Shown piece by piece: positions 9,441-33,471 of a DNA stretch of 38,482 bases. Position 1 is the first letter of the stretch. Each line of letters begins with the position of its first letter. The DNA lies in the NCBI GenBank assembly GCA_016217695.1, contig JACRHE010000115.1, positions 1 to 38,482 of the forward strand, written 5' to 3'. This DNA is from Nitrospirota bacterium (GTDB lineage Bacteria; Nitrospirota; Thermodesulfovibrionia; Thermodesulfovibrionales; UBA6898). The notes beneath the pieces were generated by a model. It made no database searches, had not been told where the DNA came from, and saw only the letters and a program-made list of their open reading frames with translations. Position numbers and translations under genes: made by a program.

Positions 9441-9539
9441 ACCCGCATCCTCCTCACGCTTGATATTAAATTGTATCACGCATTCATTCAAACACAAAAT
9501 TTCGAAGGAACTGTGAATTTCAGCACACATTATTCATAA

Positions 9540-9883
9540 ATTTCACGGGTATGCCGAAAAAAGCTTTTCGTCAGTATGGGGCATGTCTTTATCCTAAATC
9601 CGGCAGTTGGGGACAGATGCAAGAGCGACCTGGCCCGTATATCGTTGCGGGTCTTGGCGAAATGAAGCGGCCGCAGCCGTGACTGTCCGAACCCAAAGGG
9701 TGAGTTTCACGGCTGCAGCGGACTGAGCCGTAGAGCCGCAGAAATCGGGCCTTTTGAGCGATTGTGTCTATCCTCAACTGCTTTTCAGGTTTATACGGCT
9801 TTGCACAGTCTGCTCCGATCAAACAGGAGAATAATCCGATAACTGGAGCTTACGAAAAGTTTTTGAGATAGTGGCCGTAAACT
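9540..9883 (+). repeat. Repeat family B, copy 1, carrying a nested family A copy
   Basis: The left end runs from ATTTCACGGGTATGCC into a stretch around AAAAAAGCTTTTCGTCAG. The right end is CTTACGAAAAGTTTTTGAGA running to CGTAAACT. The same two ends, in reverse orientation, bound copy 2 at 32729-32867, and CCGATAACTGG and TTGCAC.GTCTGCTC are shared inside. The ends are imperfect inverted repeats of one another. The copy is longer than copy 2 because a 179-bp family A element lies within it. This stretch and the rest of the 9441-9913 gap contain no gene I can support. Confidence 0.75.
9603..9781 (+). mobile_element. Repeat family A, copy 1 (179-bp MITE-like element)
   Basis: The element begins GCAGTTGGGGACAGA and ends TCTATCCTCAACTGC, imperfect inverted repeats. 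In its centre GCAGCCGTGA (9673-9682) pairs perfectly with TCACGGCTGC (9707-9716) around a loop containing AACCCAAAGGGTG. A second copy at 18023-18201 has exactly the same length and the same central hairpin. It has no coding capacity for a transposase. It sits inside family B copy 1. Confidence 0.8.
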
Positions 9884-9913
9884 AATATTTGATTCGCAAA
9901 CAAAATGGCGAAT

Positions 9914-12641: not shown

Positions 12642-12722
12642 AAAATGCCCCCATATAGTTTCGAAGTTTATTGATTATATCACTAAAGCCCGGATTATAT
12701 CTCTCTCCTGCATCATTCATAG

Positions 12723-12822
12723 ATTTCACGGGCATGAAGAGAAAACTTTTCGCCTGTAACAGAAATGCCTACATGAATCTGCATTGTTTGCTCTGAACAG
12801 GCAGCAGAATATGCCGCTAACC
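12723..12822 (+). repeat. Repeat family B, copy 3 (decayed)
   Basis: It starts ATTTCACGGGCATG and continues with GAGAAAACTTTTCGCCTG, then TGCATTGTTTGCTCTGAAC and ATGCCGCTAACC, in the same order as copies 1 and 2. The right inverted end is no longer recognisable. It lies between the selenoprotein gene and the PAS-kinase gene. Confidence 0.55.
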
Positions 12823-17918: not shown

Positions 17919-18022
17919 CTCGAAGTCTCAGGATAAACGTATTCATAAGCTATCAAAAGGCGATGCTGCAAGTAAAGAGAAATATACACGGGGCAGAGGC
18001 GCACAATATAATACTAATAACC

Positions 18023-18201
18023 GCAGTTGACAGAGCTGAATTGAGCGACTTCGCTTTTTTTTCGTTGCCGTGCTTAGCGAAATACAGCGTTAAGCAGCCG
18101 TGACTGTCTGAACCAGAAGGGTGAGTTTCACGGGTGCAGCGAAATGAGCTTAGAACGGCAGAAAAAAGGCGTCCGGAGCGAAAGGCAGATCCGTCAACTG
18201 C
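18023..18201 (+). mobile_element. Repeat family A, copy 2 (179-bp MITE-like element)
   Basis: Perfect nine-base inverted ends, GCAGTTGAC and GTCAACTGC. The central GCAGCCGTGA (18094-18103) pairs with TCACGGGTGC (18128-18137) with one mismatch. It has the same length, orientation and central block as copy 1, but the flanks differ from the family B context. It ends 14 bases before the rlmN stop on the opposite side, so it also sits at a transcript 3' end. The rest of 17919-18215 holds no gene. Confidence 0.82.
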
Positions 18202-18215
18202 AAAATACAGGATGG

Positions 18216-32703: not shown

Positions 32704-32728
32704 AGCCAGATATTATGAAACAGCGATT

Positions 32729-32867
32729 ATTTCACGTCCACTGTCTCAAAAACTTTTCGTAAGCGCCAGTTATCGGAATATCCTCCTCTCTGCTCAGAGC
32801 AGACAGTGCAAAATCATTCAAAGCATGTCTGTACTGACGAAAAGCTTTTTCGGCATACCCTTGAAAT
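32729..32867 (-). repeat. Repeat family B, copy 2 (139 bp, intact)
   Basis: The ends ATTTCACG and CTTGAAAT are inverted, then CAAAAACTTTTCGTAAG faces CTGACGAAAAGCTTTTTCG. In reverse orientation it aligns with copy 1 throughout, apart from the 179 bp inserted in copy 1. It fills the gap between two convergent genes and the AT-rich palindromic ends could serve both as a terminator. Confidence 0.75.
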
Positions 32868-32883
32868 TTATAAATAATGTCGG

Positions 32884-33471
32884 CTAAAGCCTGCCGGATT
32901 TGTCATATTCCTGAACATAGACCTTGATCGCCCTGAGTATCAGCCAGTCCACTGTAACGCTGTTGTCAGACGCTATCCTGATCAGCCTGTCAATAACGTC
33001 CTTTTCTATTACAGGCGCATTGCCGGAAGGCTCCTGAGCAGCTGACTGTTCGCCGGCGTCCGCCCCAGGAGAACGTCTCTTATGCTCCCTTGCAAGTATT
33101 TCCTTCAGCCGGTTCATATCTCCGGCGCCGGCGGCGCTCATCAGGTCCGCAGGAAGGACGTTGGAATCAGAAGGCTCCTGAGATTTATCTGCCTTGTCGC
33201 GACCCTCATCTGCTGCATATTTTTTCTCCTCGGCAGGAGGAATGTCCATTGAAGGCATCATCCCGGTCATGCCCATCATCAGGGAAACGAGTTTTCTTGC
33301 CTGCTCATTATCAGGCATTTCGCTCTGCATAAACTCATCAAGCCTCCCCTCAGCCATCGCCTGCGCTATCTTGTCAGCCTTCAGCTCTGTCACCTCTTTG
33401 TCGTCAAGACGTTTCCCTGAGCCAAAAGGAGTTTTAGGCGGCCTCGGCAGAGTTTTTCTTTGATCTGGCAT
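32884..33471 (-). CDS. Hypothetical protein with helical C-terminus
   Basis: 195 residues, not recognised. The N-terminus is basic and proline-rich (RKTLPRPPKTPFG), the middle is low in complexity with a Met patch (MMGMTGMMPS), and the last 45 residues (DVIDRLIRIASDNSVTVDWL, ILRAIKVYVQEYDKSG) form helices like a ribbon-helix-helix or adaptor end. A second helix pair in the middle is PADLMSAAGAGDMNRLKEIL. Cytoplasmic, same strand as the solute-binding gene. Confidence 0.7.
   Translation of the reverse strand: MPDQRKTLPRPPKTPFGSGKRLDDKEVTELKADKIAQAMAEGRLDEFMQSEMPDNEQARKLVSLMMGMTGMMPSMDIPPAEEKKYAADEGRDKADKSQEPSDSNVLPADLMSAAGAGDMNRLKEILAREHKRRSPGADAGEQSAAQEPSGNAPVIEKDVIDRLIRIASDNSVTVDWLILRAIKVYVQEYDKSGRL

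Follow-up and report, generated by a model that had tools for sequence, protein, structure and literature searches.

The repeat at 9519-9908 of the window, the 38,482-nucleotide stretch of Nitrospirota DNA analysed here, is read, with a probability of about 0.93, as two unrelated non-autonomous elements lying one within the other: element B, a MITE probably moved by an IS1380-type enzyme, and element A, inserted into it in trans at the target TTTAT. The window is contig C66 of an assembly of 3.04 Mb (221 contigs, 87% complete). Comparison of the window with itself and alignment of the B copies divide B copy 1 (plus strand) into two arms, 9519-9592 and 9790-9908, split by A at 9593-9789 (Table 1). 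An exact 5-bp duplication, TTTAT, directly borders A on both sides, with the insertion point at 9592/9593. In the alignment, a typical uninterrupted B copy reads GGGCATGCTTTTATATGATTTTGC, with a single TTTAT, and copy 1 reads GGGGCATGTC-TTTAT-(element A)-TTTAT-ACGGCTTTGC across the junctions; the motif that is single in the typical copy is thus doubled in copy 1, the pattern expected of a 5-bp staggered insertion. The original prediction had placed a family A element inside B copy 1, near position 9600 in the interior of B, with copy 2 as the empty state, and had proposed aligning the B copies, locating the boundaries of A and looking for a target duplication. This alignment bears out the placement and finds the exact duplication beside the terminal inverted repeats of A, and the inserted segment, put at 179 bp in that account, is in fact longer, at 197 bp.

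Table 1. Features of the nested A and B elements and of their other copies in the window.
Feature	Position	Strand	Basis and remarks
B copy 1, left arm	9519..9592	+	Includes outer terminal repeat and left TTTAT; 92% to B consensus positions 1-73; 32 other copies aligned
Target duplication, left TTTAT	9588..9592	+	Sequence; single copy in uninterrupted B copies
Element A, 197 bp	9593..9789	+	Boundaries by B alignment; other copies in genome
A left terminal repeat CCTAAATCCGGCAGTTG	9593..9609	+	Sequence; exact pattern match; same end type in G004 MITEs
A core hairpin, 147 nt, covarying across the order	9619..9765	+	Match to model R1; pair counts
A right terminal repeat CCTGAAAAGCAGTTG (read on minus strand)	9775..9789	-	Sequence
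Target duplication, right TTTAT	9790..9794	+	Sequence; B alignment
B copy 1, right arm	9790..9908	+	85% to B consensus positions 69-187
B copy 3, truncated, unbroken at the A site	12711..12821	+	76% to B consensus positions 10-122
A second copy, outside B	~18011..18211	+	BLASTN, 72% over 194 bp; model match 18039-18185
B copy 2, uninterrupted (empty state)	~32715..32888	-	91% to B consensus positions 1-176, E 2.6e-58

Element B is a repeat with a consensus of about 193 bp and is without coding sequence. Searches with A plus B and with the left end of B gave at least about 50 copies in the window's genome, a lower bound with further candidates unscored; the copies are 80-93% identical to the consensus and amount to about 0.3-0.4% of the genome. 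BLAST rows against the B consensus show 47 copies besides copy 1 crossing the insertion point unbroken. Within the window, BLASTN aligns copy 1 (plus strand) with the uninterrupted copy 2 (minus strand) at 83% identity over 96 bp (E 7e-24) and at 90% over 58 bp (E 4e-14). The truncated copy at 12711-12821 has its right third swapped for other sequence. Because 47 B copies lack the interruption and A occurs elsewhere without B, A and B are separate elements, and B was present first at this locus. The predicted order of events, B before A, therefore holds here, with the exact TTTAT as further evidence, and the A insertion at 9593-9789 is younger than B copy 1. The idea that such nests help to date activity survives in part: the nest orders the two insertions at this locus and leaves the two families unordered, since the core of A is spread across the order and the interior of B is known from one genome, so that A as a family is not thereby younger than B.

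Element A has no long open frame assigned to it, carries terminal inverted repeats (CCTAAATCCGGCAGTTG / CCTGAAAAGCAGTTG) and has about ten further matches in the window's genome, mostly away from B; its copies are mutually diverged, the best other copy being 95% identical over 115 bp and the rest less so. A pattern search of relatives found A-type ends concentrated in the genome G004, where ten elements of 141-236 bp have the ends CCTAAAAA..GCAGTT and an interior unlike that of A; their 5-bp duplications are exact in nine and agree at 4/5 bases in the tenth. In the genome G006, one A element, of 199 bp, has perfect ends and a duplication agreeing at 4/5 bases, and a 165-bp element with A-type ends lies between two copies of ATAAA. 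Since the G004 MITEs share the ends of A, differ in their interior and show exact 5-bp duplications in 9/10 cases, A is best classed, from its sequence, as a MITE, and its terminal repeats seem to form a transposition module in which the interior can vary. Among 87 A copies drawn from the whole order, those with an exact 5-bp repeat where their ends are expected were no more numerous than among shuffled pairs (21 versus 17.3), so most A copies are too old, or have their ends elsewhere, to show a duplication. At the G004 loci L217-L227, many MITEs of 141-236 bp have A-type ends enclosing a palindrome, TGTCATTGCGAA...GCAATCTC, and almost all of them are flanked by an exact 5-bp duplication; at another locus of this genome (L219, G004:C125:9200-9900), an element with B-type ends (105-298) and one with A-type ends (320-460) are separated by a gap of 21 bp.

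Two further A-type elements lie inside B-type elements of the window's genome. On contig C47, a 64-bp element with A-type ends interrupts a B copy in its left terminal repeat and is bordered by ATTAT and ATTGT (4/5; L281, G000:C47:10900-11700, ~383-446); on contig C6, the right end of a short B-like element harbours an A copy, between ATAAA and CTAAA (4/5; L297, G000:C6:11900-12800). On contig C7, a truncated A end adjoins a B copy. The 64-bp element consists of almost nothing but A-type ends, and the C6 copy has a 28-nt GC-rich insert in its apical loop in common with the copy at L003. Given roughly 15 A-type elements known in this genome and the small share of it occupied by B, three A-type elements inside B would seem, on a rough comparison, to exceed chance; an AT-rich target together with an intergenic bias could explain the excess.

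In the proposed mechanism, a transposase acting in trans would recognise the terminal repeats of A, of the type CCTRAANNNNGCAGTTG, and make 5-bp staggered cuts at TTTAT within the existing B copy, where A would be inserted, and gap repair would then leave the TTTAT duplication flanking it. The enzyme was presumably of the DDE type, its gene having been lost or lying outside the genomes sampled. Neither a transposase nor an autonomous element with A-type ends was found among the inspected loci. IS1380 was considered as the helper of A and set aside: its transposase domain (PF13701) was not found in the window's own assembly or those of G004 and G006, all rich in A-type MITEs, nor was PF01609 detected in these three assemblies, each of which is incomplete or fragmented. 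The IS1380-type genes of G017 and G011 have no A-type ends, and the genes adjoining solitary A-type ends in G006 and G012 are ordinary cellular ones.

The IS1380 connection concerns B. Matches to B in 60 relatives mostly cover its outermost ~25 bases only, and its interior is seen only in the window's genome. In the genome G012, an element with a broken IS1380-family (PF13701) transposase has the B-type 22-bp outer repeat as its ends and AAAAG on both flanks (L270, G012:C276); the B consensus agrees with these ends at 20/22 positions for the better end and 17/22 for the other. The only further matches with at most three mismatches, in 673 kb of other loci, lie in two 194-bp G004 elements, which have B-type ends and an interior unlike that of B. 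The agreement of the B terminal repeats with both ends of the G012 element makes an IS1380-type MITE, probably moved by an IS1380 enzyme in the past, the best reading of B. The 4-5 bp target duplication looked for at B itself did not appear, a 5-bp repeat being present in 0/22 copies that have both ends, so B is termed IS1380-like, its membership of the family being unproven. Loss of the duplication by age is possible, the copies having diverged from the consensus to the extent given above.

The A copies of the order fold as a single long interrupted hairpin, in the alignment of which 38/49 pairs have changed on both sides. A covariance model of the core (E 0.01) matches in 70/150 sampled Thermodesulfovibrionales genomes, with up to 20 matches per genome, and, outside the order, more weakly in families f21-f23 of the phylum. 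It finds both window A copies with E values of 1e-36 to 1e-38, well beyond chance; the copy at 9619-9765 was among the sequences from which the model was built, its independent support being the BLAST match. In 87 distinct rows, pairing is kept in 94.2% of cells, 40/43 pairs have two-sided changes, and compensatory cells number 511, versus 126 when shuffled and at most 96 with the partner slid. This alignment was fitted to the model, and so leans towards structure, and the copies are related, which makes the slid controls the better guide; these lie far below the observed value. Conservation is as high in the unpaired core columns (29/60 at 90% or more) as in the paired columns, and the outer stem varies among lineages while the core is kept. 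The core is mostly intergenic at the 38 loci inspected, with no orientation bias relative to genes there. Rfam gave no family match in the window, the best below-threshold hit over 9540-9890 having an E value of at least 4. Because its 147-nt core covaries strongly and is present in 70/150 genomes of the order, A as a family is not young.

The nest could also be explained as one composite element comprising A and B, of which the uninterrupted copies are deletion derivatives. The two other A-type elements within B-type elements would suit this explanation, but they occupy different positions in B; A stands at the present position in only 1/48 B copies (copy 1 alone), not at the same place in many unrelated loci as a single element would have it; A is found without B, and across the order where the interior of B is absent; and independent deletions would not restore a single TTTAT-like target each time. 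A composite origin is thus exceedingly improbable. An assembly chimera, in which repeat-bearing loci were wrongly joined, is conceivable in a 221-contig assembly that is 87% complete, A and B both being repeats, but is very unlikely: an exact 5-bp duplication precisely at the ends of A, together with complementary and lossless B arms, would be an odd accident, and the A copies are diverged from one another (95% over 115 bp at best, then less).

A further alternative, that the core of A is primarily a structured RNA or DNA hairpin with a function, its mobility in the window's family being secondary and the hairpin having been captured between transposon ends, concerns the cargo of A and is compatible with the nested insertion. 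Besides the covariation far above both shuffled and slid controls, the conservation of unpaired columns and the constancy of the core within a lineage-variable outer stem, it draws support from five pairs of cores, each from different genomes within family f2, with homologous flanks on both sides. Two of these ortholog pairs (L197/L177 and L198/L208; G039, G068, G059) are 97.3% identical in the core versus 78-83% in the flanks, and a third is 99.3% versus 92%; the remaining two, with flanks at 95-98%, tell little. Since no paralog in the same genome is more than 88% identical to any of these cores, the identity of the orthologs is not explained by gene conversion among copies. Against it stand the small sample of two well-separated ortholog pairs, the lack of gene-orientation bias at the 38 loci, the dispersal of as many as 20 copies per genome and the fitting of the alignment to the model. 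A primarily functional core is a serious possibility, if somewhat short of an even chance. The fuller proposal, that the core is an undescribed Nitrospirota family of structured nucleic acids under purifying selection at individual sites, to which transposon ends were added in the window's family, giving a functional hairpin that moves as a MITE, is offered tentatively and is less likely than not.

For the insertion of A into a pre-existing B copy, the clean footprint gives the exact ends of A and a link to MITEs with the same ends and other interiors. A small transposon nested in another is ordinary for bacterial MITEs; the conserved hairpin within A is the interesting part, since it belongs to a covarying hairpin family that close to half of the order's sampled genomes contain and that Rfam lacks. 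If the constraint persists in more orthologs, the core would be either an undescribed RNA or a DNA hairpin that a mobile system uses, and both possibilities are testable.

The open-licence literature on Nitrospirae MITEs, nested bacterial MITEs, IS1380 MITEs and Nitrospirota structured RNAs contained nothing on A or B. With the IS1380 family (PF13701), B shares its 22-bp outer repeat, which ends the AAAAG-flanked element of G012, but B is non-coding and shows no visible duplication, and no IS1380 transposase was found in its own assembly. MITEs inserted within other mobile elements have been described (PMC2229807), and among them RUP of Streptococcus pneumoniae resembles A in being a MITE that uses an IS transposase in trans and inserts into other mobile elements; RUP, however, has IS630-type TA targets (PMC2229807), whereas the target of A is 5 bp and its helper was not found. 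Like bacterial MITEs such as Correia/NEMIS, ERIC and RUP (PMC2229807), A is short, non-coding and dispersed, with terminal inverted repeats, a target duplication and a stable hairpin. It differs from them in its 5-bp duplication and its ends starting with CC, in place of the 5'-TA-3' motif, and in a core that is conserved, with compensatory changes, throughout an order and in some other parts of its phylum.
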